From an uncultured Trueperaceae bacterium (GTDB taxonomy: Bacteria > Deinococcota > Deinococci > Deinococcales > Trueperaceae), in the NCBI GenBank assembly GCA_937873495.1, contig CALMXZ010000010.1:372001-436000 (forward strand): a stretch of 64,000 bases of DNA, written 5' to 3'. Of the stretch, positions 2,829 to 63,869 are shown piece by piece (the stretch's first letter is position 1; every line of letters starts with the position of its first letter). The notes under the pieces were generated by a model, which ran no database searches, was not told the origin of the DNA, and saw only the letters and a list, made by a program, of their open reading frames with translations. A program made the position numbers and the translations under genes.

Positions 2829-3126
2829 TATGTCCTTCACTCCTTCCCACACGTTCGAACCAGTGGTAGACCGAGGGGCGAACGAGTGACGCCGCGAGAG
2901 GCCACCGCGGTTGGAGGGCGCGTGACAGGCGCAATGATACAGCCCGCTCGGGCCACCGGAAGCGTTCCGGGGCGCCCCGGCCACCACGTGCCGCGGCCGG
3001 GCGGCCGCCAGGCAGCGCGGCCACGCGCGCCGCGGGGTCGCCACCCGGCCACCTGGCCGTTGCGCATACACTCTCCTTGAGAAGTACGTCAGCCAAGCCC
3101 TCTTGCCCCGGATAGGACCGGTGATC
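2829..3126. other. Divergent intergenic region between binding-protein operon and phosphodiesterase gene
   Basis: About 300 bases without a convincing gene. A TATCAT box on the minus strand (2939 to 2934) is a possible -10 for the binding-protein operon, and TACACT on the plus strand (3067-3072) is a possible -10 for the phosphodiesterase gene; neither has a good -35. A short perfect hairpin, CCGGAA-GCG-TTCCGG, lies at 2956-2970. I looked for a TPP-type riboswitch upstream of the NMT1-like gene and did not recognise one. Confidence 0.4.
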
Positions 3127-4065
3127 ATGCGCTTCCTCAAGGCCCTCCTCGCCATAGTCGTCATCCTGGCCGCCGCCTACGGCGTGCTGGCCATCGTCAA
3201 CGGGCCGCGCGCGCCTCACCCGTACTACTCGCGGCTCGGCGCCGGCCCTCTGGTCCTCGCGCACGGCGGCGGGCAGGGCCTATGGCCCGACAACACCATG
3301 CCGGCCTTCACCGGCTCGGCGGCGTTGGGGTCCGACGTGCTCGAGCTCGACGTCCAGCGCGACCGCGACGGCGTCTTCAGGGTCATCCACGACGCCACGG
3401 TCGACCGGACGACGGACGGCACGGGGCTCGTCGCCGGGCTGAGCGCCGCCCAGGTCGAGGCGCTCGACGACGGCTACCGCTGGACCGTCACGGGCAACCG
3501 CGCTTCGGGTCCGGAAGCCGACTTCGTGTACCGGGGTCAGGGGGTCGGCATCCCGACCCTCGGCGAGGTGCTCGCCGGCTTCCCCGCGGCGGCCGTCAAC
3601 GTCGAGATCAAGGAAGAGACCGCCGAGGCAGGCACCGCGCTCTGCGAGCTGCTGCGCCGCACCGGCAGCGGCGACCGGGTCCTCGTGGCCTCGTTCAACA
3701 GCGCCCCGATGAAGGCGTTCCGGCAAGCGTGCCCCGACGTCGCCACCTCCGCCACACGCTCCGAGGTGACCCTGTTCTACGTGCTGGCGCGCGCCCGGCT
3801 CAGCGCCGTCTACACGCCCCCGTTCGTCGCGGTGCAGGTGCCGGTGCAGCAGGGGAGCCTCACGGTCGTCACGCCGCACTTCATCGAGGCCGCCCACGCT
3901 CGCGGCGTGAAGGTCGAGGTGTGGACCGTGAACGACGCCGCCGAGATGCGCCGGCTCCTCGCCATGGGCGTCGACGGGCTCATCACCGATCGCCCCGACC
4001 GGGCGTTGGCGGTCCTCGGCCGCGCGTTCGACGCCGGGCTGGTGCCGGGTTTCGTGGCGCCGTGA
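3127..4065 (+). CDS. Glycerophosphodiester phosphodiesterase, membrane-anchored
   Basis: A 312-residue enzyme expected to hydrolyse glycerophosphodiesters to glycerol-3-phosphate and an alcohol. A single N-terminal hydrophobic segment (about residues 5-24) should anchor it with the catalytic domain outside the cytoplasm. The TIM-barrel GDPD motifs are present: LAHGGGQ..PDNT, where the family usually has HRG..PENT, then LELDVQRDRDG, VIHDATVDRTTDGTG, NVEIKEE, and near the end VWTVNDAAEMRRLLAMGVDGLITDRPD. The ATG is favoured because AGGA lies nine bases upstream; an in-frame GTG six bases earlier is possible. The Arg-to-Gly change in the first motif is unusual. It appears to be a single-gene unit. 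Confidence 0.9.
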   Translation: MRFLKALLAIVVILAAAYGVLAIVNGPRAPHPYYSRLGAGPLVLAHGGGQGLWPDNTMPAFTGSAALGSDVLELDVQRDRDGVFRVIHDATVDRTTDGTGLVAGLSAAQVEALDDGYRWTVTGNRASGPEADFVYRGQGVGIPTLGEVLAGFPAAAVNVEIKEETAEAGTALCELLRRTGSGDRVLVASFNSAPMKAFRQACPDVATSATRSEVTLFYVLARARLSAVYTPPFVAVQVPVQQGSLTVVTPHFIEAAHARGVKVEVWTVNDAAEMRRLLAMGVDGLITDRPDRALAVLGRAFDAGLVPGFVAP

Positions 4066-45028: not shown

Positions 45029-45997
45029 GTGAAAGGCCCATCAATAGCGCTGCTGGCCTGGTCGGCGCTCGTAGGCAACACCATAGTCATCCTCCAAGGG
45101 GCCATCGTCCGGGGCACCGGCTCGGGGGCCGGCTGCGGGAGCCACTGGCCGACGTGCAACGGCACCGTCGTACCCGTCGACCCCTCGCTCTCCACGATCA
45201 TCGAGTTCAGCCACCGCCTGCTCTCGGCTGCGGTCCTCGCGCTGGGCGCCTGGCTGCTGGTCAGAGGGTTGCGCGCCCGTAAGGAGCGGCCCGGTCTGGC
45301 CGCTTACGCGACGCTCGCGTTCGGCTTCCTCGTGCTCGAGGCCCTGATCGGCGGCGCCACCGTGCTGCTCAGGATGACGGGCGAGAACACCTCCGTGGCG
45401 CGCGGCGTGTGGGTGGCCTCCCACCTCGTCAACTCGCTCCTCCTCATCGGCGCCCTGGCGGGGACCGTCGTCTACGCGCGGCGCGACGCCCCCGCTTACC
45501 CCTTGCGCCTCGGCGCGCAGGCGAACCTGACCGTCGCGCTGACCGTCGGGCTCGGCGCCATGCTCCTGGTCATGTTCACGGGCGGCATCGCGGCGATGGG
45601 TAACACCATCTTCCCGTCCGAATCGTTGGCGGCCGGCCTGCGCGCCGACTTCGACCCCGCCTCCCACCTGCTCATCCGCCTGCGGGTGCTGCACCCCCTC
45701 ATCGCCATCGCGGCGGGCACGTACCTGTTCGTGTCCCTTGGGCTGGCCTGGTGGCTGAAGCCCGTGCCTGCCGCCCGGCGCGCGGCGCAGGCACTGCTGA
45801 TCGTCTACCTGGTCCAGCTCGTGATCGGCGTGGCCAACCTCGCCTTCCTCGCGCCGCTGGCGGTGCAAGTGCTCCACCTGAGCGTGGCCGTGGCGGCCTA
45901 TGCCCTCCTGGCCGCCACGAGCATCCAGATCCTCGGCGGGCAACCGGTGCCTAGAGCAGTGCTGCGGGGCGCCGCAGTCGGGAGCGCAGAAGGATGA
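45029..45997 (+). CDS. ctaA: Heme A synthase
   Basis: A 322-residue membrane protein of the COX15/CtaA family that oxidises heme O to heme A for cytochrome oxidase. It has about eight hydrophobic segments. The N-terminal half has TGSGAGCGSHWPTCNG with the paired cysteines Cys36 and Cys43 of Bacillus-type CtaA, and the catalytic ExxHR motif as Glu59, His62-Arg63 in IIEFSHRLLS. Further His residues (VASHLVNSLLLIG, LRVLHPLIA, QVLHLSVA) are placed as heme ligands. The GTG start has only weak ribosome sites upstream. Its stop overlaps ctaB by four bases, so heme O and heme A synthesis are coupled. Confidence 0.94.
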   Translation: MKGPSIALLAWSALVGNTIVILQGAIVRGTGSGAGCGSHWPTCNGTVVPVDPSLSTIIEFSHRLLSAAVLALGAWLLVRGLRARKERPGLAAYATLAFGFLVLEALIGGATVLLRMTGENTSVARGVWVASHLVNSLLLIGALAGTVVYARRDAPAYPLRLGAQANLTVALTVGLGAMLLVMFTGGIAAMGNTIFPSESLAAGLRADFDPASHLLIRLRVLHPLIAIAAGTYLFVSLGLAWWLKPVPAARRAAQALLIVYLVQLVIGVANLAFLAPLAVQVLHLSVAVAAYALLAATSIQILGGQPVPRAVLRGAAVGSAEG

Positions 45998-46920
45998 CGA
46001 CGGACACCGGTGATCACATGACGAACGCTCAGGACCGACCGCGGGCGACGGCGCGCGACTACCTCATCCTCACGAAGCCCAAGGTCATCTCGCTCCTGCT
46101 CCTTACGGCCGTCGGCGCCATGTTCATCGCGGCGGGCGGCATGCCGAACTGGCTGGCGCTTCTCGGCATGCTCGTCGGCGGTTTCATGTCGGCGGGAGCC
46201 GCCGGCGTCTACAACATGGTCTACGACGCCGACATAGACGTGAACATGAAGCGCACGGCCAAGCGGCCGATGGTCAAGGGCTCCGTCACGCCGCGCAACG
46301 CCCTCGTCTTCGCCGTGACGCTGACGGTCCTGTCGTTCGTGGTCATCGCCCTGACGAGCAACGTGCTCGCCGCCCTGCTCTCCTGGGCGGGCATCGCCTT
46401 CTACGTCCTCATCTACACGATGTGGTTGAAGCGCAGCACGTGGCAGAACATCGTCATCGGCGGCGCGGCGGGCGCCATCCCCCCGCTCGTCGGCTGGGCG
46501 GCCGTCACTAACGACCTGAGCCTCCTCGCCTGGATCCTCTTCGCCGTAGTGTTCGCCTGGACGCCCGTGCACTTCTGGGCGCTGGCGCTGATGGTCAAGA
46601 AGGACTATGCCAACGTCGGCGTGCCCATGGCCCCCGCCGTGATCGGCGACCGCGCCACGGTCATGCAGATGGTCTTCTACACCTTCCTGACCATCGTGCT
46701 GACCGTGCTGCCGTTCTTCTTGCACCAGTTCAGCCTCGCCTACTTCCTCGCCGCGCTCGTCCTCAACCTCGTCCTGGCCGTGCGCATGGCGCGCGTCTTC
46801 CAGGTCGTGCGCTCCGGGCGCACGGTCGACCGGGTCACGGCTCTGCCCCTCTACCTGTACTCCATGAGCTACCTGGCCCTGCTCTTCGTCGTGATGGCGC
46901 TCGACCGCGCCATCTTCTAG
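45994..46920 (+). CDS. ctaB: Protoheme IX farnesyltransferase (heme O synthase)
   Basis: A 308-residue UbiA-family prenyltransferase that adds a farnesyl group to heme B. Motif 1 is AAGVYNMVYDADIDVNMKRTAKRPMVKG with the NxxxDxxxD Asp residues and the TxxRP Arg; motif 2 is YTMWLKRSTWQNIVIGGAAGAIPPLVGW. HFWALALMVKKDYANVGVPM is also typical of CyoE/COX10. About nine hydrophobic segments are visible. The ATG overlaps the ctaA stop (ATGA); a second ATG eight codons later is possible. SURF1 follows after 37 bases. Confidence 0.96.
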   Translation: MTTDTGDHMTNAQDRPRATARDYLILTKPKVISLLLLTAVGAMFIAAGGMPNWLALLGMLVGGFMSAGAAGVYNMVYDADIDVNMKRTAKRPMVKGSVTPRNALVFAVTLTVLSFVVIALTSNVLAALLSWAGIAFYVLIYTMWLKRSTWQNIVIGGAAGAIPPLVGWAAVTNDLSLLAWILFAVVFAWTPVHFWALALMVKKDYANVGVPMAPAVIGDRATVMQMVFYTFLTIVLTVLPFFLHQFSLAYFLAALVLNLVLAVRMARVFQVVRSGRTVDRVTALPLYLYSMSYLALLFVVMALDRAIF

Positions 46921-46957
46921 CCGTGGCCGCAGCCGAGACCGCCGGCGGAGCCGGCCG

Positions 46958-47734
46958 ATGAGCTCCAAGCCGGTGCTGCTGCGGGGCCGGTGGTTGGTCG
47001 GTCACGTGCTCGCGCTCGTGATGGTAGGCCTGTTCGTCAACTTCGGCTTCTGGCAGCTGCGGCGCCTCGAGCAGCGCAGGGCGAGGAACGCCGTCATCGA
47101 CTCGCGGATCCATCTCCCGCCCCGGCCCCTGGCCGACGTGCTCGTGCCCGGCGCGGAGGTGCCGGAGTATACGAAGGTCACGGTGGTCGGCACGTTCGAC
47201 GCCGAGCACGAGGTGCTCCTGCGCGGGCGCTCCCTCGACGGGCGACCGGGTTTCAACCTGCTCACGCCGCTCGTGCTCGACGACTCCGCCGGCGAGCGCC
47301 GCGGGAGCGCCGTGCTCGTCGAGCGTGGCTGGGTGCCGTACGACCGCGACTCGGTCCCGGTCACGGACGCCCTGCCGCCCGCCGGCAGCGTGAGCGTCAC
47401 CGGCGAGCTCAGGGCGCCGCAGACGCCTCCCACCGGGCCGCTCGCCTCCATCGCCGCCCACGACCCGCCCGAGGGCGTCCTAGTGCAGAGCTTCTACGTC
47501 GACGTCGCGCGCCTGGCGCCGCAGATGCCATACCCGCTCGTCGACGCTTACGTCGTGCTGAGGCAGCAGACGCCCCCCAACCAGCAGCGGCTCCCCGAGC
47601 CGCTCCCGGCCATGGAGATGGGGGAGGGGCCGCACCTTGGCTACGCGCTGCAATGGTTCGGCATGGCGCTCGTCGGCGCGATCGGCTACGTGTTCCTGCT
47701 CCGCTCGACGGCGCGCCAGAAGACCCGAGCATAG
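46958..47734 (+). CDS. SURF1 family cytochrome oxidase assembly protein
   Basis: A 258-residue protein with the SURF1 plan: an N-terminal membrane helix (about residues 12-32) followed by FGFWQLRRLEQRRARN, a large external domain, and a C-terminal helix (about 232-250) preceded by GPHLGYALQWFGMAL. The motif GFNLLTPL and VERGWVP are also family features. SURF1 helps insert heme a into cytochrome oxidase subunit I, which suits its position after ctaA and ctaB. No oxidase subunit genes follow; the next gene converges. Confidence 0.93.
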   Translation: MSSKPVLLRGRWLVGHVLALVMVGLFVNFGFWQLRRLEQRRARNAVIDSRIHLPPRPLADVLVPGAEVPEYTKVTVVGTFDAEHEVLLRGRSLDGRPGFNLLTPLVLDDSAGERRGSAVLVERGWVPYDRDSVPVTDALPPAGSVSVTGELRAPQTPPTGPLASIAAHDPPEGVLVQSFYVDVARLAPQMPYPLVDAYVVLRQQTPPNQQRLPEPLPAMEMGEGPHLGYALQWFGMALVGAIGYVFLLRSTARQKTRA

Positions 47735-47779: not shown

Positions 47780-48898
47780 TCAGTGCGTGGCCAGCGCCCC
47801 TGCCAGGGCCGCCATGATGTCCTCGAACGCCTTGACGAACTTGACGACGCCCTCCTCCTCGAGCTTGGCGGTCACGGCGTCAAGGTCGATGCCGACGCCG
47901 GAGAGCGCCTGCAACATGGCCCTGGCGTCCGCCCCGCCCTCGCCGATGCGCGAGGCCGGGTCGCCGTGGTCGCGGTACGCCTCGAGCGTGGCGAGCGGCA
48001 GCGTGTTGATGGTGTCCGGCCCTACGAGCGGCTCGACGTACTTGAGGTCGGGGTAGTTGGGGTCCTTCGTGCTGGTCGAGGCCCACAGCAAGCGCTGCGG
48101 CCGCGCGCCGGCCGCGCGCAGGCGGGCGAAGCGCTCGTTCGCGGCGCCGAAGAGCCCCTCGTAGATGACGTAGGCGCCCTTGGCGCTCGCCACCGCCGCG
48201 GTGCCGCGCAGCTGCCGCGCCGCGTGCGCCTGCGGCACGGGCTGCCTGGCGAGCTCGTCGAGCCGCGGGTCGATCATCACGTCGATGCGGCTCAGGAAGA
48301 AGCTCGCGACCGACTCGACGTTGACGCTCTTGCCCGCGGCGAGGCGCTCCTCCAGGCCGGCGAGGTAGGCCTCCGCCACCTGGCGGTAACGCTCGAGCGA
48401 GAAGAGCAGCGTGACGTTGACGTTGACGCCCGCCGCGATGAGGCGCCTGATCGCCGGTACCCCGGCATCGGTGGCAGGCACCTTTATGAACACGTTGGGG
48501 CGCTCGAGCCGCTGCCACAGGTGCATGGCCTCCGCGACCGTGCCTTCCTCGTCGTTGGCGAGGTGCGGGGAGACCTCGAGGGAGACGAAGCCGTCTACCC
48601 GGTTCGAGGCGTCGTACATGGGGCGGAAGAGGTCGGCGGCGGCGCGGATGTCCGCGACCGTCAGCTCCTCGTAGGTCGCGTACGGCGTCGAGCCGGACCG
48701 CGCCAGCGCCGCGATGGCGTCGTCGTAGTCGTGGCTCTCGACGATGGCCTTCTGGAAGATGGCGGGGTTGGAGGTGACCCCAGCCAGCCCATCCTCGTCG
48801 ATCATGCCTTGCAGCGTGCCGTTCGTGAGCCACGAGCGGCGGAACTCGTCAAGGTAGACCGTCTGTCCGAACTGCCTCAAGCGCAGTAGTGGGTTCAT
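47780..48898 (-). CDS. tal: Transaldolase
   Basis: A 372-residue long-form transaldolase of the pentose phosphate pathway, exchanging a three-carbon unit between sugar phosphates. Motifs: GVTSNPAIFQKAI near the start, GFVSLEVSP, NVFIKVPATDAGVPAIRRLIAAGVNVNVTLLFSLERY with the Schiff-base Lys, VASFFLSRIDVMID, and LWASTSTKDPNYPDLKYVEPLVGPDTINTLP. The ATG has GGAGG six bases upstream. It follows the Rieske gene on the same strand after 75 bases; a TATCAT box there (48969 to 48964) suggests a separate promoter. Confidence 0.96.
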   Translation of the reverse strand: MNPLLRLRQFGQTVYLDEFRRSWLTNGTLQGMIDEDGLAGVTSNPAIFQKAIVESHDYDDAIAALARSGSTPYATYEELTVADIRAAADLFRPMYDASNRVDGFVSLEVSPHLANDEEGTVAEAMHLWQRLERPNVFIKVPATDAGVPAIRRLIAAGVNVNVTLLFSLERYRQVAEAYLAGLEERLAAGKSVNVESVASFFLSRIDVMIDPRLDELARQPVPQAHAARQLRGTAAVASAKGAYVIYEGLFGAANERFARLRAAGARPQRLLWASTSTKDPNYPDLKYVEPLVGPDTINTLPLATLEAYRDHGDPASRIGEGGADARAMLQALSGVGIDLDAVTAKLEEEGVVKFVKAFEDIMAALAGALATH

Positions 48899-48973
48899 GC
48901 TCGACCTCCAGTCGGGAAATGGCGCAGGGCGATGACGAGGGCCCGGGCGCGTCGCCACCGAAGATGATAAGGC

Positions 48974-49609
48974 TCAAGCCCGCTCGATGCCCGTAGCCAC
49001 CACGGAGCCGCCGCGCAGCTCGAGCCGCACCCGGGGCAGCGGCAGGACGGCAGGGCCGCTCACCGCGCGACCGCCGCGCATGGGATCGAAGACGCTCAGG
49101 TGGCATGGGCAGGTGAGCTTCGGGCCGTCGGTCTCGTAGTTGAAGCCGAAGTTGATGGCGTCGACGTCGCGGTTGAGGACCACTATGCAGTGCTGGTGCG
49201 TGCAGATGCGGCTGAAGGCTGCCAGGTGGGCGCTGGGCGTGCCGACGCCGCTGTCCACCGTCACGCCGCCCGCGACGGGGCCCGGCAGGCGTACTGCCAG
49301 CGCCGGCGCCGGCCCGCCGTTGGGCCCGCCGGAGGGCAGCTCGAAGGAGACCTCGTCCCACACGTTGGCGAAGGCGGCGACGGTGCCGACCGCGACCTCA
49401 GGGACCTGGTCGAACTCCGGGTCGGAGGCAGGGTCGCGCTTCAGGAAGTGGACGGTGATGGCCTCGTAGACGCCGTAACCGCCGCCAAGGAGCGCCGCGA
49501 GCACGGGCACGCGCCACAGCCACTTGACCAGTTCCCGGCGGGAGACGCGCTCCCGGTGCGAGCCCGGCTCCCGGCCGGCCGGGTCGGCCGTTTCGCCAGG
49601 CTGCGGCAC
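48974..49609 (-). CDS. Rieske 2Fe-2S protein, probable Tat substrate
   Basis: A 211-residue membrane-anchored Rieske protein. A twin-arginine motif, SRRELVKW, precedes one hydrophobic helix (about residues 32-50). The cluster motifs are CTHQHC (Cys136, His138, with Cys141) and CPCHLS (Cys168, His170, with Cys167 not being one since it is Thr). This fits the Rieske subunit of a bc-type quinol:cytochrome c oxidoreductase or a related complex. The GTG five bases after the upstream stop is chosen to include the Tat signal. It follows directly the CcmI-cytochrome c fusion gene, suggesting that both serve the same electron path; no cytochrome b gene is in the window. Confidence 0.87.
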   Translation of the reverse strand: MPQPGETADPAGREPGSHRERVSRRELVKWLWRVPVLAALLGGGYGVYEAITVHFLKRDPASDPEFDQVPEVAVGTVAAFANVWDEVSFELPSGGPNGGPAPALAVRLPGPVAGGVTVDSGVGTPSAHLAAFSRICTHQHCIVVLNRDVDAINFGFNYETDGPKLTCPCHLSVFDPMRGGRAVSGPAVLPLPRVRLELRGGSVVATGIERA

Positions 49610-49614
49610 GGTCG

Positions 49615-51135
49615 CTAGAGCCCGCTCTGGGAGAGGACCTGGGTCACGTACGCCACCACGGCGTCGAGCTGTTCGGGCGCCAGGGCCGCCTGGAAGGCCG
49701 GCATCATGCCGCGGCCGAAGCGCACGGCGTCTCGCACGTTGGCTTCGCTGGCGGCGCGCTGGTTGCCTGCCAGCCGGACGCCGACGCCGCCCTCGCCCCG
49801 CTGGCCGTGGCACTCGGCGCAGGTGGTGGAGAAGACCTGCCGTCCGACGGCGGCGAGGCTCGTCGCGTCCGGCGCGCCGACCGCGGCACCGCTCGCTTGC
49901 GTGCGGGCCGATTCGGCGAGGGCCCGCGCCGGCGCGCCCAGCTCGGGGCCGACGAGCTCGGCGTAGAGGTCGTAGTTACGGGCCGCCGCCTCCCATGCGC
50001 CGGTCTGGGCGTAGGCGTCGGCGAGCGTCATGACGGCGTCCGGCTCGAGCTCGGCCACGCCACCGGCGGCCACGGCCGCGCGCTCGATGGCGCCGACGGC
50101 GTCGCCCGGTCGGCCGGCGACGTAGAGGAGCTGGCCCGTGCGGGCGAGGGCCCGCGGCTGCGTCTGGTCGTGATCGGTGAGGACCTTGAAGTAGCTCTCG
50201 ACGGCTTTCTGCGGCTCGCTCGCCTCCCAGTAAGCGTCGCCGAGGGCGAGGAGGTTCTCCTCCGACGGGTCGGCGAGGACGGCGGCCTGGAGGGGGCGGA
50301 CGCGCTCGATGAGCGCGAGGCGCCGCTGCGCCGTCGGCTCGCCCGCCCCGTCGGGGGTGGCGGTGAACGCGGTGAAGGCGTCCGCGGCGCGCTCTAGGTC
50401 GCCGCGTGCGAACGCGACCTCGCCGAGCAGGTAGAGCGTCTCGGCGTCGCCCGGCTCCGCGCCGCGGGCGAGTTCGAGCCACCCTTGGGCCTGCGTGAGG
50501 TCGCGCTGCAGGGCGAGGATGGCGAGGCGCTTGTAGGCGGCGCCCGGCACGGGGCTCACCTCGTCGACGATGCGCCGGTAGGTGGTCTCGGCCTCGTCGA
50601 GGCGTTGCAGACCGAGGTACATGTCGCCGAGCGTCAGGAGGTTCTCGGGGGAAGGGTCGGACTGCGCGGCGCGCTGTGCCGCCTGCAGCTGCTGGGCCAC
50701 GTCGACGTCGGTCGTCGTGATCGTGTCGGTGCTGCTGACGCGGGGTAGGACGTAGGTCGGGACGGCGGCCGCGAGCAGCAAGAAGGCGGCGAGGACGACG
50801 ACGGCGCCGACGGGGACCCGCTTCGCCTCGGTCCGCTCGCGCTTCGGGGCCCTGCCGGCCAGGGCGGCCTCGCGCTCGTCGATGGAGGCGAGGACCTTGG
50901 CGGCCTTCGCCTCGTAACGCTCATGCAGCTGGCGGCGGCGCTCCAACGGCAGGTCGACGCGCGCGTCCAGCTCCTGGATGGCGCGCAGGAGGGCGGCCTT
51001 CTCCTCGCCGAGGTCGACGAGCTGCGGGTCGCGGTCGTCGGGGAGTTGGTCGACCTGCTCGGGTGCCAGCAGCGGGATGGCGACGTAGAAGAACGCGATC
51101 AGGACGAGAAGCCCTATGACGATGGTGGTAAGCAT
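49615..51135 (-). CDS. CcmI-like TPR protein fused to a cytochrome c domain
   Basis: A 506-residue protein with two parts. The first resembles CcmI: a helix (residues 3-24), a cytoplasmic coiled-coil loop with EEKAALLRAIQELDARVDLPLERRRQLHERYE, a second helix (about 109-128), then external TPR repeats up to about 400. The second is a mono-heme c-type cytochrome: Cys439-Ala-Glu-Cys442-His443, GxGG, and a likely Met ligand at 478 in GRGMMPAF, ending in VVAYV. The topology puts TPR and heme on the same, external side. CcmI normally presents apocytochrome c to CcmF/H; a fused cytochrome is unusual. It lies three bases after ccmH and five before the Rieske gene. Confidence 0.88.
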   Translation of the reverse strand: MLTTIVIGLLVLIAFFYVAIPLLAPEQVDQLPDDRDPQLVDLGEEKAALLRAIQELDARVDLPLERRRQLHERYEAKAAKVLASIDEREAALAGRAPKRERTEAKRVPVGAVVVLAAFLLLAAAVPTYVLPRVSSTDTITTTDVDVAQQLQAAQRAAQSDPSPENLLTLGDMYLGLQRLDEAETTYRRIVDEVSPVPGAAYKRLAILALQRDLTQAQGWLELARGAEPGDAETLYLLGEVAFARGDLERAADAFTAFTATPDGAGEPTAQRRLALIERVRPLQAAVLADPSEENLLALGDAYWEASEPQKAVESYFKVLTDHDQTQPRALARTGQLLYVAGRPGDAVGAIERAAVAAGGVAELEPDAVMTLADAYAQTGAWEAAARNYDLYAELVGPELGAPARALAESARTQASGAAVGAPDATSLAAVGRQVFSTTCAECHGQRGEGGVGVRLAGNQRAASEANVRDAVRFGRGMMPAFQAALAPEQLDAVVAYVTQVLSQSGL

Positions 51136-51138
51136 GCT

Positions 51139-51633
51139 TCAGCCGTCCTCGCTGCTCTCGTCGCCCGTGCCGGGCCCGTCCGGCCCGGCCGCGGCGCCGG
51201 CGAGAGCCGCCCTGACCCTGTCGAGGTCGGCCTGGCTCACGGGCTCCGTCCTGGCCGAGGCCGCCAGCCAGCGCCTCGTCATGCTCACGACGACGACGAC
51301 GGCCGCCGCCCCGATCAGGACGGGCAGCAGCCAGACGAGGAGGTGGACGCCGCGCTTGGGCGGGTCGAGGAGGATCCAGTCGCCGTAGCGCTCTTGGAAG
51401 AACGCGTAGATCTGGGCGTCGCTCAACCCCTCTTCGATCTTCTCCTGGATTAGGCCCCGCATCTGCTGCGCGATCTCCGCGCTGGAGTCCGCGACGCTCT
51501 CGGAAGTGCAGACCGGGCAGCGCAGGTTGCGGGAGATGTCGAACGCCCGCGAGCCGATCTGGACGTCCTGGGCGCCGGCGAAGGGCGCCGCGGCCAGGAC
51601 GGCGGCGATGAGCAGGACCGCGAGGCGCCTCAC
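51139..51633 (-). CDS. ccmH: Cytochrome c maturation protein CcmH
   Basis: A 164-residue thioredoxin-like protein with signal peptide (LAVLLIAAVLAAAPFAGA), the LRCPVC motif (Cys39, Cys42) in ISRNLRCPVCTSESVADSSAEIAQQMRGLI, the AFFQERYGDWILLDPP region, and one C-terminal membrane helix (about 105-125). It reduces the apocytochrome CXXCH cysteines, with CcmF and CcmI, before heme attachment. The GTG overlaps the ccmG stop by four bases. Confidence 0.95.
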   Translation of the reverse strand: MRRLAVLLIAAVLAAAPFAGAQDVQIGSRAFDISRNLRCPVCTSESVADSSAEIAQQMRGLIQEKIEEGLSDAQIYAFFQERYGDWILLDPPKRGVHLLVWLLPVLIGAAAVVVVVSMTRRWLAASARTEPVSQADLDRVRAALAGAAAGPDGPGTGDESSEDG

Positions 51634-52181
51634 CTGAGCAGCGCTCCGAGCTGCTGGTCCAGTACGGCGGCCGTCACGGGTCCGATGTGCTTGGCCACGA
51701 CCTTGCCGCTCGCGTCGACGAAGAACGTCTCCGGCACGCCGTACAGCGCCCAATCGACGCCCACGAGGCTGTCGTTGTCGAGCACGTTGGGGAAGCCGAG
51801 GTTGAAGCGGGCTATGAACGTCCGACCCTCGTCGCGCTTGTCGCGGTCTTGCGTCTGGATGCCGACGAACTGCACGCCCTGCGGACCGTACGTCTGCCAG
51901 GCCTGCTGCAGGATGGGCGCCTCGTCGTAACAGGGGAGGCACCACGACGCCCAGAAGTTCACGACCAGCGGTTGGCCGACGTGCTCTTGCAGCGAGAACG
52001 TCTCGCCGTAGTCGGGCCAGTAGCGCTCGTAGAGGGGCAGGGTGAAGCCGGGGGCGGGTCTGCCGAGGAGGTTGGACGTGATGTTGCGGTCGTCCGGGTT
52101 GCCCCGCAGGAGCCCGAACGCGAAGAGCGCGCCGATGGCGGTGACGACGATGGCGATCAGGGCGGTGCGGCTGGCCTTCAT
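51630..52181 (-). CDS. ccmG: Thiol:disulfide interchange protein CcmG/DsbE
   Basis: A 183-residue membrane-anchored thioredoxin. An N-terminal helix (about 6-25) is followed by PAPGFTLPL, VVNFWASWCLPCYDEAPIL with active-site Cys81 and Cys84, and GVPETFFVDASGKV with the cis-Pro. It takes electrons from CcdA and passes them to CcmH and apocytochrome c. The start overlaps the ccmF stop by four bases (ATGA), and its stop overlaps ccmH. Confidence 0.95.
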   Translation of the reverse strand: MKASRTALIAIVVTAIGALFAFGLLRGNPDDRNITSNLLGRPAPGFTLPLYERYWPDYGETFSLQEHVGQPLVVNFWASWCLPCYDEAPILQQAWQTYGPQGVQFVGIQTQDRDKRDEGRTFIARFNLGFPNVLDNDSLVGVDWALYGVPETFFVDASGKVVAKHIGPVTAAVLDQQLGALLR

Positions 52182-54181
52182 GCCGGCGCGCCCTCGCGCT
52201 TCTCGCCGGCGACGGCCCGGGCCGGCACCGTTCTGCGGCCGCCGCCGAGCGAGTAGACGGTGCCGAGCAGGAGGATCGCGCCGCCCAGCCAGATCCAGGT
52301 GACCAGCGGGCTCTTGACGACGCGCAGCACGACGAAGGTCGTGTCCGGGCCGACGCTGCTGTTCAGGTTCAGGTAGAGGTCGTGCGTCGCCGTGTAGTAG
52401 ACGGCCGGGGTGGGAACGGTGCGGCCCGCCTCACCGAAGAGGTTGAGGCGCGGGCGCAGGGTGGTGACGGGCTTGCCGCCGCGCGTCACCTCGATGACCG
52501 CGCCGGCGCTGATGCGCGCCGGGGTGCGCTCCATGAAGCGGTCGACGGCCGTCAGCGTGTAGCCGGAGAACTCCGCGCTGCCGCCGAAATCGAGCCGGAT
52601 CTGCTCGTCGACCCGGTAACCGGAGCTGAAGGCGACGCCGAGCGCGATGATCACGACGGCGAAGTGGACGATCATGCTCCCGACGCGCCGGCGGCTCTCG
52701 ACAGCGTACGAGCGGATGACCTGCAAGGCGCCGCGATTGGCGAGGCGGAGGCGCGGGGCCAGGGCGCCGGACAGGAGCAGGTAGAGGCTCATGAGGTTGT
52801 AGCCGGCCAGCGCGACGGTGAGCGCGGGGTAGACCTTGTGCACCCCGAGCAGCCACGCGAGCGCGCCAGAGACGACGAACGCGGCCGCGAGCAGCGCGAG
52901 GTTGCGCGACAGGCGCTGCTGCTCCGCGCGCCGCCACGGCAGGAGCGGCCCGATGCCCATCAGGAGGAGCACGAGCATCCACAGGGGCAGCGTCGTCTGG
53001 TCGAAGAACGGGGCGCCCACCGTGACCTTGTCGCCCGTCAGCGCCTCGACGATCAGGGGGAAGAGGGTGCCGAGCAGCACGGCGGCCGTTAGCGTTACGA
53101 AGAGGATGTTCACGCCGAGGAAGCTGCCCTCCCGGCTCACGACGGAGTCGAGGTCGGCGCGGTCCTTGACGTCGTCCCAGCGCATGGCGAGCAGGCCGAA
53201 GGCGGCCAACGTCACCAGCAGGAAGAAGACGAGGAAGGCCGGCCCGACGGGCCCGTTGCCGAACGCGTGGACGGAGGAGACGACGCCGGAGCGGGTCAGG
53301 AACGTGCCGAGGATCGAGAGCGAGAACGTGGCGACGATGAGCAGCACGTTCCACGGCTTGAGCATGCGCCGCCGCTCCTGGACCTGCACGCTATGGATGA
53401 ACGCGGTCGCCGTCAACCACGGCATGAAGCTCACGTTCTCGACGGGGTCCCACGCCCAATAGCCGCCCCAGCCGAGCACCTCGTAGCTCCACCAGCCCCC
53501 TGCCACGATGGCGCCGGAGAGGAACCCCCAGCCCGTCAAGGTCCAGCGGCGCGTCTGAGCCATCCACTCGGTACCGGGCCGGCGCGTGATGAGCGCGGCC
53601 ATGGCGTACGCGAACGGCACGGTCAGCCCGACGAAGCCCAAGTACATGAGCAGCGGGTGCACGGCCATCATCCAATGGTTCTGGAGCAGTTCGTTGGGTC
53701 CGGGGCCGTCGAGCGGCGGGAGCGGCACGACCTTGAACGGGTTGGCGATGAACGCGAGCACGCCTAGGAAGAAGACCTGGACGGCCTGCATGATCGAGAT
53801 GGCGTACGGGCGCAACGGGCTCAACGGGGCCGTGACGGCCAGCAACGCCGTGTAGCCGGTGAGGAGCCAGGCCCAGAGGAGGATGGAGCCTTCCAGGGCG
53901 GCCCACATCGTCACGACCTTCACCCACGTCGGGGAGGCGATGCGCGAGTGCCCCGCCACGTAGGACACGCTGAAGTCGTTCGTGAGGAGCGCGGCCTGCA
54001 TGACGACGACCGCGGCGGTGGCGAGGATGAACCCGGCCACGGCGGCGAGCCGGGCGGACGTCTGGAGGCGGGCGTCCCGCCGGGCGGCGCCGATGACGCC
54101 GGCCACCGCCCCGTAGAGGGCCAAACCGAACGCCAGGAAGACGCTGGCGCCGCCGAGGGGACCGAGTTGCAGCTCGAACAT
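52178..54181 (-). CDS. ccmF: Heme lyase subunit CcmF
   Basis: A 667-residue membrane protein with about 15 hydrophobic segments. The tryptophan-rich WWD motif GWGGYWAWDPVENVSFMPWL is present, as are HSRIASPTWVKVVTMWAALEGSILLWAW, NHWMMAVHPLLMYLGFVG with a heme-ligand His, and VHAFGNGPVGPAFLVFF. It joins heme to apocytochrome c with CcmH and CcmI. An ATG is chosen; a GTG one codon earlier is in frame. It starts 13 bases after ccmE and overlaps ccmG. Confidence 0.97.
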   Translation of the reverse strand: MFELQLGPLGGASVFLAFGLALYGAVAGVIGAARRDARLQTSARLAAVAGFILATAAVVVMQAALLTNDFSVSYVAGHSRIASPTWVKVVTMWAALEGSILLWAWLLTGYTALLAVTAPLSPLRPYAISIMQAVQVFFLGVLAFIANPFKVVPLPPLDGPGPNELLQNHWMMAVHPLLMYLGFVGLTVPFAYAMAALITRRPGTEWMAQTRRWTLTGWGFLSGAIVAGGWWSYEVLGWGGYWAWDPVENVSFMPWLTATAFIHSVQVQERRRMLKPWNVLLIVATFSLSILGTFLTRSGVVSSVHAFGNGPVGPAFLVFFLLVTLAAFGLLAMRWDDVKDRADLDSVVSREGSFLGVNILFVTLTAAVLLGTLFPLIVEALTGDKVTVGAPFFDQTTLPLWMLVLLLMGIGPLLPWRRAEQQRLSRNLALLAAAFVVSGALAWLLGVHKVYPALTVALAGYNLMSLYLLLSGALAPRLRLANRGALQVIRSYAVESRRRVGSMIVHFAVVIIALGVAFSSGYRVDEQIRLDFGGSAEFSGYTLTAVDRFMERTPARISAGAVIEVTRGGKPVTTLRPRLNLFGEAGRTVPTPAVYYTATHDLYLNLNSSVGPDTTFVVLRVVKSPLVTWIWLGGAILLLGTVYSLGGGRRTVPARAVAGEKREGAPA

Positions 54182-54194
54182 CACCGTGCCCCCG

Positions 54195-54623
54195 TCAGCG
54201 GAGCGACTCCTTGAGAGCCTCTACGTCGATCGGCTCGCCATCCGCGGGCGGATGGTAGTCGCTGCTGTGCTTCACGAGCAGGTTGTCGCCTACGAAGACG
54301 CCGTCGTGGAAGCGCCCCTCGATGACGACCCCGCCGTTCTCCTGGAAGAGGTCGGGCGGCGCTCCGTCGTACTGGACCGGGTAGTCCTTGAGGTGATCCG
54401 TTATCTGGAACGTCAGGTGGAGGTTCGCGTCGTCGAACCTGACGCTCCCGGCCTGCACGAGCCCGCCGAGGCGGACGCGCTTGCCCTCGAAGGCCGCCGT
54501 GTCGCGGGCGTACTCGCTCGGCAGGATGAAGTAGACGAGCGAGGACTGCAGGGCCTTCGAGATGAGGAACCCCGCCACCGCCAGCACCGCGACGCCTAGG
54601 AGGGCGTAGACGATCTTCTTCAT
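54195..54623 (-). CDS. ccmE: Heme chaperone CcmE
   Basis: A 142-residue periplasmic protein with one N-terminal membrane helix (about 5-24) and an OB fold. The covalent heme-binding His is His119 with Tyr123 in VKHSSDYHPP, matching the HxxxY motif of E. coli CcmE (His130, Tyr134). VRLGGLVQAGSV and YDGAPPDLFQENGGVVIEGRF are conserved. It carries heme from CcmC to CcmF. Its ATG overlaps the stop of the tiny ccmD (TGATG). Confidence 0.95.
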   Translation of the reverse strand: MKKIVYALLGVAVLAVAGFLISKALQSSLVYFILPSEYARDTAAFEGKRVRLGGLVQAGSVRFDDANLHLTFQITDHLKDYPVQYDGAPPDLFQENGGVVIEGRFHDGVFVGDNLLVKHSSDYHPPADGEPIDVEALKESLR

Positions 54624-54751
54624 CAGCTCTTGCTCTTGGCCCTCGCCTGGCGTTCGCGCCAGTTCAGGTACACGAGGTAAGCGCCGTAAGCGACGAGGAC
54701 TTCCAACCAGGCGATGGCCACCCAGGCCCAGGGGCTCAAGCTACCGGACAC
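54623..54751 (-). CDS. ccmD: Heme exporter protein CcmD
   Basis: A 42-residue membrane peptide between ccmC and ccmE, where ccmD lies in other System I clusters. One hydrophobic helix (WAWVAIAWLEVLVAYGAYLVY) is followed by the typical basic end LNWRERQARAKSKS. It starts at GTG, overlapping the ccmC end by 11 bases, and its stop overlaps the ccmE ATG. CcmD helps release heme-loaded CcmE from CcmC. Identification rests on position, length and topology because the family has little sequence conservation. Confidence 0.85.
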   Translation of the reverse strand: MSGSLSPWAWVAIAWLEVLVAYGAYLVYLNWRERQARAKSKS

Positions 54752-55472
54752 TGACTACCTCCCGCGCTACGCCCTTGACCGAGTCGAAGGTCTTGTCGTC
54801 GGCGAGCGAGAGCCGGCCGATGCGTATGCGTTCCGAGATGAAGTAGACGAAGACCATGGCCCCGCCCAGGACGTTGAGGAGGAGCACCCGCAGCATCGTC
54901 GGGTCCATGGTCACGCCGCTGCCGTCGAGGTTGACGCTCTTGGCGGGGTGCAGCGTCCTGAACCATTCGGCCGCCAGGTAGTTGAAGGGCAGGCTGGCGA
55001 GCACGACGATCATGATGACCGCGCTGACGCGGGCGCGCCGCTGCGGGTCGTCGATGAGCGCGCGCACGATGAAGTAGCCGACCACGAGCGCGACCATGAG
55101 GGCCGTGAGCGTCAGCTTGGCGTCCCACGTCCAGTACGTGTTGAGGGTCGGCTTGCTGTACGTCATGCCGCCGACCACGGTGAGGATGGAGTAAAGGAGG
55201 GCGGCCTCGGCCGTGCCCTGCGCGCGCACGTCGTCGATGGCGCGGCCGCGCCATAGGTAGAGCATGCCCCAGACCGCCGAGACGGCGACCGCGGCGAAGC
55301 CGATCCACGCGACGGGGACGTGGGCGTACATCACCCTGATGAGGTCGCCCTGGTTGACGTCCGGCGGGCTCATGATCAGCGCCCCGTAGAGGCCGACGCC
55401 GACCACTGCGAGCGTGACCAGTCCGAAGACGGTCAGCCAGCGCGGCCTTCTCGTTCTGCTCGTGTCAGTCAT
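54741..55472 (-). CDS. ccmC: Heme delivery protein CcmC
   Basis: A 243-residue membrane protein with six hydrophobic segments and the tryptophan-rich motif near TYWTWDAKLTLTAL. Heme-ligand His residues lie in YAHVPVAWIGF and RTLHPAKSV, flanking the motif as in other CcmC proteins. It loads heme onto CcmE. GGAGAACGAGCAC precedes the ATG. A 194-base gap separates it from ccmB, with a possible -10 (TAGACT, 55519 to 55514), so ccmC-to-Rieske may have its own promoter. Confidence 0.95.
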   Translation of the reverse strand: MTDTSRTRRPRWLTVFGLVTLAVVGVGLYGALIMSPPDVNQGDLIRVMYAHVPVAWIGFAAVAVSAVWGMLYLWRGRAIDDVRAQGTAEAALLYSILTVVGGMTYSKPTLNTYWTWDAKLTLTALMVALVVGYFIVRALIDDPQRRARVSAVIMIVVLASLPFNYLAAEWFRTLHPAKSVNLDGSGVTMDPTMLRVLLLNVLGGAMVFVYFISERIRIGRLSLADDKTFDSVKGVAREVVSVR

Positions 55473-55666: not shown

Positions 55667-56350
55667 TCAATCATCGACGACGAAGTGGAAGATGCTGGCG
55701 CATACGACGAGGTAGACGAGGTCGAACCCCCCGAGCAGCTGCACCCATGAGAGGGCGAGGGGCGCGTCGGCGCTGCCCATGAGCGCGGCCTCCGTCGCCC
55801 GGACGGCCCCGAGCATGATGGGCACGATCACGGGGAACATGAGCACGGGGAGGAGCGCCTCCCGCGCCTGCAGGTTCGCCGTGAGCCCGGCGTAGAAGGT
55901 GGCGATGATGGCCAGCCCGAGCGTGCCGAGCAGCAGCACGAGGCCGAGCAGCCACCAGGTGCCTGCCGGTGCGGTTGCCCCGTAGAGGCCGAGGGCGATG
56001 GGCACCATGAGCACCCCGAGCGCGAAGAGGTAGAGCCAGCTCGCGGCGAGCTTGCCCAGGTAGATGGCCGCTCGGGAGGCCGGTAGGAGCAGGAGCTGCT
56101 CGAAGGCCCCTTCCTCGAGGTCGGCCTGGAAGCTCTGGGCGGCGGCGATGACGCCGGCGAAGGCCAACGCCACCCACAGGACGCCCGGCGCCGCGCTGCG
56201 CATGAGCTCCGGTTCACGCCCGAGCCCGAAGGCCATCATCACGAGGGTTATCGCCGAGAAGAACAGCGTGGCCACCGTGGTGGCGCGTGAGCGGAGCTCC
56301 TGGAGGAAGTCCTTGCGCGCGACGGTCAGGGCGGCGATCAGGTCGTTCAT
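55667..56350 (-). CDS. ccmB: Heme ABC transporter permease CcmB
   Basis: A 227-residue membrane protein with six hydrophobic segments, of the usual CcmB length. Conserved parts: VARKDFLQELRSRATTVATLFFSAITLVMMAFGLG at the start, GVLWVALAFAGVIAAAQSFQADLEEGAFEQLLLLPASRAAIYLGKLAASWLYLF, and LPVLMFPVIVPIMLGAV. With CcmA it forms the ATPase-dependent step that frees holo-CcmE from CcmCD. Its ATG overlaps the ccmA stop (ATGA). Confidence 0.95.
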   Translation of the reverse strand: MNDLIAALTVARKDFLQELRSRATTVATLFFSAITLVMMAFGLGREPELMRSAAPGVLWVALAFAGVIAAAQSFQADLEEGAFEQLLLLPASRAAIYLGKLAASWLYLFALGVLMVPIALGLYGATAPAGTWWLLGLVLLLGTLGLAIIATFYAGLTANLQAREALLPVLMFPVIVPIMLGAVRATEAALMGSADAPLALSWVQLLGGFDLVYLVVCASIFHFVVDD

Positions 56351-57042
56351 GCCCCGAACATCCGCAACGTCCCGCCCCTGAGCTCGATGACGGCGTCGGG
56401 GCCGAGGTGGTCGCGGTCGGACTCGTGCGACGCCATGAACACCGTGCGCCCCCTGGCCTTGGCGGCCGTGACGCATTCGTCCATGAGGCGCTTGCCGAGG
56501 TCGTCGAGCGCAGCGTACGGCTCGTCGAGGAGCCAGAGGTCGGGGTCGAGGAGGAGCAGGCGCGCGAGCCCCAAGCGCTTCTTCATGCCGCTCGAGTAGG
56601 TCCGCACGAGCTTGTCGGCCGCCTGCTCGAGCCCGACGCCGGCGAGCGGCCCCTCGAACCCGGCCCCGCCGGCCGCCATGTCGCTCCGAGGTGCCCCCTC
56701 GCGGGGTCCTGGCGCGAGGGCGGCGGCCAGCTCGAGGTTCTCGCGTCCGGTCAGCAGGGGGAAGCTGCCGCCCATGACGCTCAGGAGGCCGAGCCGGGCG
56801 CGGGCGGCCGCGCCGTCGCGCGTGAGGTCGTGGCCGAAGACGAAGGCCTGGCCGCCGGCCGGCCTCAGGCGGGTGGCCAGCAGCCGCAGGAGCGTCGTCT
56901 TGCCGGTGCCGTTCGAACCGCGGAGCACGACGAGCCTCCCGGCCGCCACCTCGAGGTTGACGCCGCGCAGGACGTACTCGCCGCCCATGCGCCTGGTCAC
57001 TTCCCTGAGCTCGATGGCGAGCTCGTCGGTGCCGCCGCTCAT
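56347..57042 (-). CDS. ccmA: Heme ABC transporter ATP-binding protein CcmA
   Basis: A 231-residue ATPase with Walker A GSNGTGKTT, signature YSSGMKKRLGLARLLLLDPDLWLLDEPYAALDD with Walker B, and the switch His in MASHE. The YSSGMKKR signature is characteristic of CcmA. A Gly/Ala/Pro-rich insert of about 25 residues (PGPREGAPRSDMAAGGAG) lies before the signature. Its ATG overlaps the ccdA stop and its stop overlaps ccmB, so the three genes are tightly coupled. Confidence 0.94.
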   Translation of the reverse strand: MSGGTDELAIELREVTRRMGGEYVLRGVNLEVAAGRLVVLRGSNGTGKTTLLRLLATRLRPAGGQAFVFGHDLTRDGAAARARLGLLSVMGGSFPLLTGRENLELAAALAPGPREGAPRSDMAAGGAGFEGPLAGVGLEQAADKLVRTYSSGMKKRLGLARLLLLDPDLWLLDEPYAALDDLGKRLMDECVTAAKARGRTVFMASHESDRDHLGPDAVIELRGGTLRMFGA

Positions 57043-57743
57043 AGCTTGTCGAGGAGCCAGGCGGGCGTGATGTTGATGAGGTAGCCGTTCAGCACGGTGT
57101 ACAGGCCGGTGACCATGAGGACGCCGGCCACGAGGAGGAGTGCGCCCGCCACCCGCTCGACCCACGGCAGGAACCGGCGGAACCGGCGCGAGAAGCGCAT
57201 GAAGGGGTCGAGGAGCAGCGCGGCGGCGAGGAAGGGCACGGCCAGGCCGAGCGCGTAGACGGCGAGCAGCCCGACGCCGGCGCTCAGCGTGCCCGCCGCG
57301 CTCGCCATCGTGAGGATGGCGCCGAGGATCGGCCCGATGCACGGCGTCCAACCCGCCGCGAACGCCATGCCGAGGAGCACGGCGCCGAAGGGCGTGCGGG
57401 TCTCGCCCGAGTACTGCATGCGCGTGTCGCGGTAGAGCCACGGCAGCTTGATGACCCCGAGCATCACGAGCCCGAAGAGGATCACCAGGACTCCGCCGCC
57501 GAGGGTGAGGGCGCGCTGGTTGGTGCGCAGGAGCGAGCCGAGCGCGCTGGCGCCCGCCCCGAGCGCGATGAACACGAGCGAGAAGCCGAGCACGAAGGCA
57601 AGGGCGTTGCGGATGAGCACCGCCCGCTTGGCCTCGGCGCTGCCACCGACGTACGCCAGGTAGGACGGCACGAGGGGGAGCACGCACGGCGAGAGGAACG
57701 ACAGCACCCCCGCCACGAACGCGACGCCGATGCCCGGCGTCAT
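57039..57743 (-). CDS. ccdA: Cytochrome c biogenesis transmembrane protein CcdA
   Basis: A 234-residue membrane protein with six hydrophobic segments that passes electrons from cytoplasmic thioredoxin to CcmG. The redox cysteines are Cys20 in LSFLSPCVLPLVPSYLAYVGG and Cys134 in FAAGWTPCIGPILGAIL, both in the standard CcdA setting. It is first in the ccm cluster. No strong ribosome site precedes the ATG; a short upstream frame on the same strand ends overlapping it (ATGA). Confidence 0.95.
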   Translation of the reverse strand: MTPGIGVAFVAGVLSFLSPCVLPLVPSYLAYVGGSAEAKRAVLIRNALAFVLGFSLVFIALGAGASALGSLLRTNQRALTLGGGVLVILFGLVMLGVIKLPWLYRDTRMQYSGETRTPFGAVLLGMAFAAGWTPCIGPILGAILTMASAAGTLSAGVGLLAVYALGLAVPFLAAALLLDPFMRFSRRFRRFLPWVERVAGALLLVAGVLMVTGLYTVLNGYLINITPAWLLDKL

Positions 57744-62183: not shown

Positions 62184-63869
62184 CTACGCGCCGACGCGGT
62201 TCTTGCCGAGGCGCTTGGCTTCGTAGAGGTTCGTGTCGGCCCGCATCAGGACGGTCGACTGGTCGTCGAGCTCCTCGGAGGTCGCGACGCCGACGCTCAC
62301 CGTCACGTGGAGGCGATGGGCCTCCATCGCCTTGCGCGGCACGATCGCTAGCACCTTGTTGGCGACCTCGAGCGCTCCGCGCAGGTCCGTCTCGGGCAGG
62401 AGGATCACGAACTCCTCGCCCCCGAGCCGCGCGACGACGTCGACCTCGCGCGTGCACTCAGTGAGGGCTTGCGCGGCCGTGCGGAGGACGGCGTCGCCGA
62501 CGACGTGGGTATAAGTGTCGTTGAGGCGCTTGAAGTCGTCCAGGTCGACCATAAGCAAGCTGAAGGGGTGCCCGCCGCGGCGGAAGCGCAAGAGCTCGAT
62601 CGACAGGGCGTCCTCGAACGCCCTGCGGTTGGGGACGCCGGTCAGGGAGTCGGTGCGCGAGAGGCGTTCGAGGTGGGCGGCCTGGGCCTCCAACCGCTCG
62701 TGCAGCTGGCGCAGGTCCGTGTAGGCGTGCGCGAGCTCGACGTTGCGCAGCCGGTCGATCTCGCGGTCCTTGCGCATGCGCTCGACATCGAACTGGACCT
62801 GGAGCAGCTGGGTCCTGCGGTCGGAGAGCTGCATCAGCGTCTGCTGGTTGAGCTCGAAGAAGCTCTCGAAGTGCGTCAGCGCCTCCTCCCACCGCCCCAG
62901 GCGCTTGAGGGCGTCGGCCATGGCCCTATGCGCCGCGGCCGCGTCGACCGGGGCGCCGCTCGCGGTGCTCCGCTCGAGGGCGTGCGCGAGGGGGACGAGC
63001 GCCAGCTCCGGCTCGCCGTGGGCGAGGTGGACGCGACCGAGGCCGACGAGCGCCTGGCCGTCCGCCTGCTCGACCGACTCGCCCCGCAAGCTGATGCACT
63101 TCTCGAACGATTGGCGGGCCTCGTCCAGCTTCCCTTCCTCGAGGCTCAGGTCGCCGAGGCCGAGCAGGGCGAAGCGCTTGCCGTAGGCGTCGGAGCGCTC
63201 GAAGCACTCTTCGAAGGCGCGCCGCGCCGCGGCGCCGTCGCCCTGCTGCTGATGGGCGAGGCCGATGATGCGCAGGGCGGTGGAGGTGTCGCGGACGGCG
63301 TGCCGGGAGACGGAGGCCGCCTCCAGCCCGCGCAGCGCGTACTCGAGCGCCAGCTCCGGCTGACCGAGGTCGAGGTAGACGCGCGCGATGCCGTTGAGCG
63401 GCCCCGCGACCGCCTCGGGCGCCGAGCGCTCCAGGATGTCGAGGGCGACGGAGTGGTGGGCGAGCGCGTGTTGATAGAGCCCCACGGCGTGGTGACACCA
63501 GCCGAGGCCGACGGAGGCGAAGGCCTCGCCTCTCTCGTCGCCGATGTGGCGCCTGAGGTGGGCCTCGAGCTGCGCCACCTGGAGGGACGCGACGTAGTCG
63601 CTGCGTCTGAACAGGCTGATAGCCAGGGTCGTGGCAGCGTTCGCCAGGCTGGCCGCCGTCGCCGGGTCCAGTTCGGCGACGCAGGCGTCCCACTCGCGCG
63701 GGTCCGCCGTCGGGTCGAGGCCGACATGCGCCAAGGCTTCGCGGCCGTGGCGCATCGCCTCGTCGTAGTTGAACTCGTGGTTAGCCGCCGCCGCCGCTGC
63801 CGATAGCTCGCGCAAACGGGCGTCGGGTGGGAGCACGCTCTGCGCCATGGCCGTGTACCCGTCCTCCAC
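62184..63869 (-). CDS. TPR-containing diguanylate cyclase (GGDEF)
   Basis: A 561-residue cytoplasmic protein. Residues 30-330 hold about seven TPR-like repeats (for example PLNGIARVYLDLGQPELALEYALRGLEAA, ALLGLGDLSLEEGKLDEARQSFEKCISL), then a coiled coil (about 345-405) and a GGDEF domain (about 405-561). The active site is GGEEF at 483-487, so c-di-GMP synthesis is expected, and an RxxD inhibitory site lies at 474-477, exactly five residues before it. SLTGVPNRRAFEDAL and VDLDDFKRLNDTYTHVVGDAVL are typical. The TPRs probably sense a protein partner. The start may be this GTG or the ATG at 63848; neither has a well-spaced ribosome site. Confidence 0.92.
   Translation of the reverse strand: MEDGYTAMAQSVLPPDARLRELSAAAAAANHEFNYDEAMRHGREALAHVGLDPTADPREWDACVAELDPATAASLANAATTLAISLFRRSDYVASLQVAQLEAHLRRHIGDERGEAFASVGLGWCHHAVGLYQHALAHHSVALDILERSAPEAVAGPLNGIARVYLDLGQPELALEYALRGLEAASVSRHAVRDTSTALRIIGLAHQQQGDGAAARRAFEECFERSDAYGKRFALLGLGDLSLEEGKLDEARQSFEKCISLRGESVEQADGQALVGLGRVHLAHGEPELALVPLAHALERSTASGAPVDAAAAHRAMADALKRLGRWEEALTHFESFFELNQQTLMQLSDRRTQLLQVQFDVERMRKDREIDRLRNVELAHAYTDLRQLHERLEAQAAHLERLSRTDSLTGVPNRRAFEDALSIELLRFRRGGHPFSLLMVDLDDFKRLNDTYTHVVGDAVLRTAAQALTECTREVDVVARLGGEEFVILLPETDLRGALEVANKVLAIVPRKAMEAHRLHVTVSVGVATSEELDDQSTVLMRADTNLYEAKRLGKNRVGA

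Follow-up and report, generated by a model that had tools for sequence, protein, structure and literature searches.

A CcmI-type protein with a C-terminal cytochrome c domain, co-encoded with a Rieske protein in the System I operon of Deinococcota

Gene content of the ccm locus

The window analyzed here, a stretch of 64,000 nucleotides from an uncultured Trueperaceae bacterium, carries on its minus strand the genes ccdA, ccmA, ccmB, ccmC, probable ccmD, ccmE, ccmF, ccmG and ccmH, followed by a gene for a CcmI-cytochrome c fusion protein, a Rieske gene and then a transaldolase gene (Table 1). The predicted products are those of a complete System I set (ccdA, ccmABCDEFGH). The transaldolase gene (47780 to 48958) lies on the same strand directly after the Rieske gene, likewise in loci L042 and L043; in the Thermus-like loci inspected it does not directly follow. 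Beside the ccm operon lie consecutive plus-strand genes for CtaA, a CtaB-type protein and SURF1 (45029 to 47734), so that oxidase and cytochrome assembly genes adjoin. Elsewhere in the window, an ORF at 62184 to 63869 appears by eye to encode TPR-like repeats and, after them, a GGDEF-like domain (GGEEF).

Table 1. Features of the ccm operon, the fusion gene and the Rieske gene in window coordinates
Feature	Position	Strand	Basis
Rieske [2Fe-2S] protein, one N-terminal membrane helix (RR motif)	48974..49609	-	PF00355, 27.7 bits; GTG start at 49609 or 49546
ccmI::cytochrome c fusion gene, 506 aa	49615..51135	-	ORF and translation, domains, AlphaFold2 model, homologues
CcmI N-terminal module, residues 1-135	50731..51135	-	TM1 2-23, cytoplasmic helical loop, TM2 109-128
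Periplasmic TPR solenoid, residues 141-414	49894..50715	-	Pfam TPR_16 and others, AlphaFold2 helices, profile-profile match
Class-I cytochrome c, C-terminal, residues 424-500	49636..49866	-	PF13442, 1.6e-13; PF00034, 1.1e-6
Haem c attachment motif C439-A-E-C442-H443	49807..49821	-	direct reading
Met478, predicted distal haem ligand	49702..49704	-	34 residues past motif; invariant in 33-sequence alignment
ccmH, RCPVC thiol motif	51139..51633	-	PF03918, 6.1e-33
ccmG/dsbE, thioredoxin-like, WCLPC	51630..52181	-	TIGR00385, AhpC-TSA
ccmF, haem lyase subunit	52178..54184	-	PF16327, 9.2e-59; TIGR00353, 3.6e-126
ccmE, haem chaperone	54195..54623	-	PF03100, 5.1e-30
Probable ccmD, 38 aa, one membrane helix, TTG start	54623..54739	-	position (ccmC/ccmE gap) and hydrophobicity only
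ccmC	54741..55472	-	PF01578, 8.4e-16
ccmB	55667..56350	-	PF03379, 4.6e-41
ccmA, ABC ATPase	56347..57042	-	PF00005, 2e-25
ccdA-type thiol electron importer	57039..57743	-	PF02683 (DsbD_TM), 1.2e-16

The fusion gene was read as one minus-strand ORF from an ATG at 51135 to a TAG stop at 49615, the coordinates that the first-pass annotation had given. The end of ccmH (51139) lies immediately 5' of this ORF and the GTG of the Rieske gene (49609) 6 nt 3' of it, in agreement with the proposed position between these two genes. In the AlphaFold2 model of the protein, obtained with a 33-sequence alignment (mean pLDDT, 89.3; pTM, 0.65), both transmembrane helices and the TPR solenoid have the limits listed in Table 1, a cytoplasmic helical hairpin occupies residues 37 to 93, and a separate small helical domain is found at 424 to 499. 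The cytoplasmic loop of the N-terminal module is conserved (EExxAL.AI.EL...RYEAKAA), with 21 invariant columns in module alignment A1. Pfam places TPRs at residues about 148 to 400 and, in the same ORF, Cytochrome_CBB3 (PF13442) at 428 to 497; together with C439-AECH and Met478, this bears out the earlier assignment of residues 430 to 506 to a c-type cytochrome with CAECH and a Met ligand. The domain also matches CcoP, c550 and c6, a common class of carriers. Foldseek matches to the full model are dominated by TPR proteins. Both halves of the protein are under purifying selection (dN/dS mostly 0.1 to 0.5 within genus).

Assignment of the N-terminal and TPR parts

In other organisms, CcmI hands immature cytochromes c to the machinery that attaches haem. 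The window protein itself falls below the cut-off of the NCBIfam model of the CcmI N terminus (TIGR03142; E = 0.37), and its own TPRs match only generic TPR models in Pfam. TIGR03142 is matched by 5 of 13 members of the window's family (best, 8.7e-4). A relative from another family, G043, scores 29.9 bits in the genome search, with a cut-off of 29.3, and 29.1 bits as a whole protein; it is linked to the window's family through alignment A1 (1.8e-11). A further relative, G048, which we take to be Oceanithermus profundus, passes PF23914, the CcmH/CycH TPR domain (45.7 bits; cut-off, 42), and the same ORF also passes PF13442. TPR alignment A3 matches the CcmI proteins of D. shibae and P. aeruginosa in hhalign (98.1%, E = 1.2e-13), and the profile-profile match of the transmembrane module alone to the same two proteins is weak (7.8%). 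A CcmH-type ORF with its motif lies immediately upstream of CcmI in 103 of 106 loci.

The N-terminal and TPR parts are taken as CcmI because of the TIGR03142 and PF23914 matches in relatives, the TPR profile match and the invariant place after ccmH, an assignment that rests on relatives and gene order. The CcmI identity initially proposed for residues 1 to 400 is supported by one relative that exceeds the TIGR03142 cut-off in the genome search (0.2 bits short of it as a whole protein) and another over that of PF23914. A general TPR protein unrelated to CcmI is ruled out by the same matches and the gene order, generic as the TPRs of the window protein are.

Distribution and history of the fusion

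The survey covered 111 Deinococcota genomes, with phylum, class and order searches giving an identical set; Thermus, Meiothermus and Marinithermus are presumably among them, and the control list names Thermus composti and Deinobacterium chartae. A CcmI-type sequence was found in 107 genomes and CcmF in 108; one genome (G026) has neither, and the remaining gaps are in fragmented genomes. Across these genomes, the presence of CcmI tracks that of CcmF. The homologue search of the 111 genomes returned no second CcmI-like gene of comparable score.

In total, 106 CcmI ORFs were read and three cut by contig ends were left out. CxxCH and a Met 30 to 45 residues later, nearly always at a spacing of 34, are present in 100 of the 103 untruncated ORFs, and 99 of these 100 have no further cysteine in the 250 residues preceding the motif. 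The three ORFs lacking a cytochrome in frame belong to G036 and G037, both of genus g16, and to G093. In G093 (Thermus-like; locus L135, ~2579 to 3710), CcmI and the cytochrome lie in two neighboring frames, through either a sequencing error or a true break. In g16, presumably Truepera (with G036 taken to be Truepera radiovictrix), CcmI ends in a Pro/Ala/Thr-rich tail at the place of the cytochrome and the Rieske gene follows directly (loci L038 and L035), a natural deletion. A tree built from the CcmI part places genus g16 within the window's family. Relocation of the cytochrome in these genomes is rejected: the search of G036 gave no close cytochrome, and the single G037 cytochrome placed in the tree groups with ordinary ones.

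In a tree with 28 other Deinococcota cytochromes c, the fused domains group in a single clade (support, 91/90; 0 of 500 shuffles). Since they do so, the fusion looks like one ancient event early in Deinococcota, which, with one later loss in g16, best explains the distribution; recent gain of the cytochrome by recombination is ruled out by the same clade. Judged from the homologues, the architecture is phylum-wide and not peculiar to the window genome. The first-pass annotation, which did not know this fusion as an established one, had picked out something real, but with CxxCH and Met in 100 of 103 Deinococcota ORFs it is no oddity of one genome. The scan of genome contigs returned one close relative, and tblastn of the window fusion protein against plasmids gave no match. 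A decayed System I remnant, consisting of ccmE, a ccmF fragment, a TlpA/ccmG-like gene and the start of ccmH, is present on Deinococcus aetherius plasmid pDAETH-3 (L205:8379-10420) and closes with a cytochrome c piece containing an in-frame stop.

An artificial join of two genes, through an error of sequencing or assembly, has a negligible probability. The window genome is a 17-contig assembly, but the same joint occurs in about 100 independent genomes, single-contig ones included, and this reading is now refuted. A frameshift or error had been set beforehand as what would overturn the fusion; the result is one ORF, with the joint repeated throughout those genomes. Chance or error is excluded because CxxCH and Met are retained in 100 of 103 untruncated homologues and purifying selection acts on each half.

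The downstream Rieske protein

The Rieske gene lies directly downstream of CcmI in 96 of 103 testable genomes. All 96 sequences contain the C-x-H-x2-C and C-x-C-H boxes, with all six C/H residues invariant in a 26-sequence alignment (A4), and the AlphaFold2 model has a pLDDT of 96.2. In the Thermus-like genomes inspected it is the last gene of the operon, the next large gene being on the other strand. The gene is not downstream in G040 (L140), g28 (L055-L082 set) or G051 (L137), where the cytochrome-bearing CcmI is kept. Because the cytochrome has been lost in g16 and the Rieske gene is missing in g28, G040 and G051, the two are not strictly coupled; their link is strong but not absolute.

The closest match of this Rieske protein, by both sequence (1e-18) and fold, is AioB; the match to the bc-complex Rieske protein (Thermus 1nyk) is weaker (6e-10). 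The window genome has no detectable cytochrome b; the PF00033 search gave none in G000, G021, G036, G037 or G024, and in genomes that do have a cytochrome b a separate Rieske protein adjoins it. A bc-complex Rieske subunit is ruled out by the lack of a detected cytochrome b in these five genomes, and the Rieske complex originally suggested as electron partner is, with AioB closest, not of the bc type. A subunit of arsenite oxidase is likewise ruled out for most genomes, as no large subunit was found in 12 of the 14 tested; AioA (TIGR02693) is over the cut-off in one and gives a sub-cut-off match in a second, and the window genome is negative.

On Metabacillus plasmid pB218 (L207:4466-4966), ccmE-ccmF-ccmH is immediately preceded by a Rieske gene of opposite strand, and short CcmI-like proteins are encoded after ccmH. 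The Rieske product matches the profile of the Deinococcota ccm-linked Rieske proteins weakly (16.5 bits), a hint that the association of Rieske and ccm genes may reach beyond Deinococcota.

Proposed function and alternative explanations

The interpretation that we favor, with moderate confidence, is that of a CcmI protein serving the haem-lyase complex that also carries a tethered His/Met cytochrome c as electron carrier and as client in cis, with the Rieske protein as its likely redox partner. The CcmI part would still present apocytochromes with CcmFH, and the attached domain would be matured in cis by the same haem-ligation complex, yielding a membrane-held, single-haem His/Met carrier. Its nearest redox partner may be the co-encoded AioB-like Rieske protein, and electrons would then pass from the Rieske protein to the cytochrome c domain, and from there to an oxidase or a soluble cytochrome. 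The elements of this proposal that we take from the sequence itself are one polypeptide, a CcmI module with TPRs, a conserved cytochrome c, a single ancient fusion with one loss, and a position at the end of a complete ccm operon, as its final gene or the one before it. The retained CxxCH and Met (100 of 103) and purifying selection favor a carrier function for the cytochrome domain. The Rieske protein is a likely partner, given its presence at 96 of 103 loci, its invariant ligands and its retention where no cytochrome b and, in 12 of 14 genomes, no large subunit of arsenite oxidase is found; co-location in the operon could, however, reflect co-regulation only.

The two parts could instead form a redox arm of maturation itself, in which the Rieske protein and the CcmI-borne cytochrome take electrons from a System I step, such as the oxidation of haem to Fe3+ that precedes formation of the CcmE adduct by CcmC, or removal of the second quinol electron when the first goes to the membrane haem of CcmF. 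In its favor are the covalent attachment to a machine subunit, an operon position shared across the phylum and retention of the Rieske gene where no cytochrome b is found. Both how haem becomes oxidized before adduct formation and what reduces the CcmF membrane haem (-147 mV) are stated to be open in work whose structural model is Thermus CcmF (PMC10663686), and in Shewanella a cytochrome c, NapB, rescues Ccm and feeds its thiol pathway, which gives a precedent for contact between a cytochrome c and the redox chemistry of Ccm (PMC8782879). We nevertheless consider it unlikely, as Proteobacteria run System I with neither the cytochrome part nor the Rieske protein, the cytochrome is missing from the Truepera-like genomes and the Rieske gene from g28, G040 and G051, and a high-potential pair fits the oxidizing steps only, not reduction of the CcmF haem. 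The narrower proposal that the cytochrome and the AioB-like Rieske protein serve System I as its own dedicated outlet for electrons, for haem oxidation at CcmC or for the second quinol electron, is improbable; if true, the maturation of cytochromes c would include a bifurcation-like step.

It is rather unlikely that the cytochrome is a respiratory carrier only, with the former CcmI as anchor or docking scaffold, no role in maturation and a place in the ccm operon for co-expression. The common carrier class to which it belongs (CcoP, c550, c6) and the cytochrome oxidase assembly genes next door would suit such a role, but the cytoplasmic loop and transmembrane module, useless for docking, are among the most conserved parts, and a second CcmI-like gene of comparable score was not found. 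An anchor role alone for CcmI, which would fit the earlier suggestion of a carrier anchored by the former CcmI helices, is also argued against by g16, which lost the cytochrome and kept CcmI intact. More doubtful still, and very improbable in our judgment, is an internal client or sensor, in which the attached apocytochrome fills or monitors the place where the TPRs bind apocytochromes, gating the machine until it has itself been matured. The geometry in cis would allow this, and TPR proteins of this kind bind the C-terminal ends of their clients (PMC3884852). A mere decoy is disfavored because the Met ligand and fold residues are conserved, with the spacing of a working carrier, none of which a decoy would need; moreover, g16 lost the cytochrome without replacement.

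A putative electron-transfer pair at the end of a haem-attachment operon would have a testable role, in respiration or in maturation. Natural variation in Deinococcota allows genomes that have both parts to be compared with the Truepera-like ones, which lack the cytochrome, and with g28, G040 and G051, which lack the Rieske gene. Thermus CcmF is a structural reference for System I, but in the same phylum a predicted haem protein is attached to CcmI and an iron-sulfur protein is encoded with it; this is relevant to the interpretation of System I, whose electron source and sink are stated to be unknown (PMC10663686).

Comparison with known systems

In the open-access literature on CcmI with Thermus or Deinococcus, represented mostly by titles, abstracts and search terms, neither the fusion nor the ccm-linked Rieske protein is mentioned. 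The fusion is provisionally regarded as a previously undescribed variant of CcmI rather than a new kind of system, provisionally because the literature was open access only and the comparison outside Deinococcota consists of four plasmid loci.

With CcmI (CycH; TIGR03142 N-terminal, PF23914 TPR), the fusion protein shares two transmembrane helices, a cytoplasmic loop, periplasmic TPRs and a gene directly after ccmH. The proteobacterial CcmI proteins described earlier end in an alpha/beta C-terminal region (PMC3884852), whereas the Deinococcota fusion has a cytochrome c there; CxxCH is absent from the CcmI loci of D. shibae, P. aeruginosa, Pseudonocardia and Metabacillus, the four non-Deinococcota loci read. 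CxxCH, the Met ligand and a C-terminal helix are shared with class-I monohaem cytochromes c (PF13442/PF00034; cbb3 CcoP, c550, c6), but those are soluble or subunits of an oxidase, whereas the fused domains sit behind CcmI TPRs and form their own clade. NapB of Shewanella differs in being a separate nitrate reductase cytochrome with two haem-attachment sites, neither fused to nor co-encoded with the machinery (PMC8782879).

The downstream Rieske protein has its Cys/His ligand set and disulfide pair in common with the bc-complex Rieske protein (Thermus 1nyk). AioB, the small subunit-type match by sequence and fold, also shares its single N-terminal RR-type signal or anchor. AioB of arsenite oxidase docks cytochrome c (PDB 8ed4) as its natural electron acceptor. 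The ccm-linked Rieske protein differs from it in occurring without AioA in 12 of 14 genomes, in having about 28 residues between the ligand boxes and in being tied to ccm genes.
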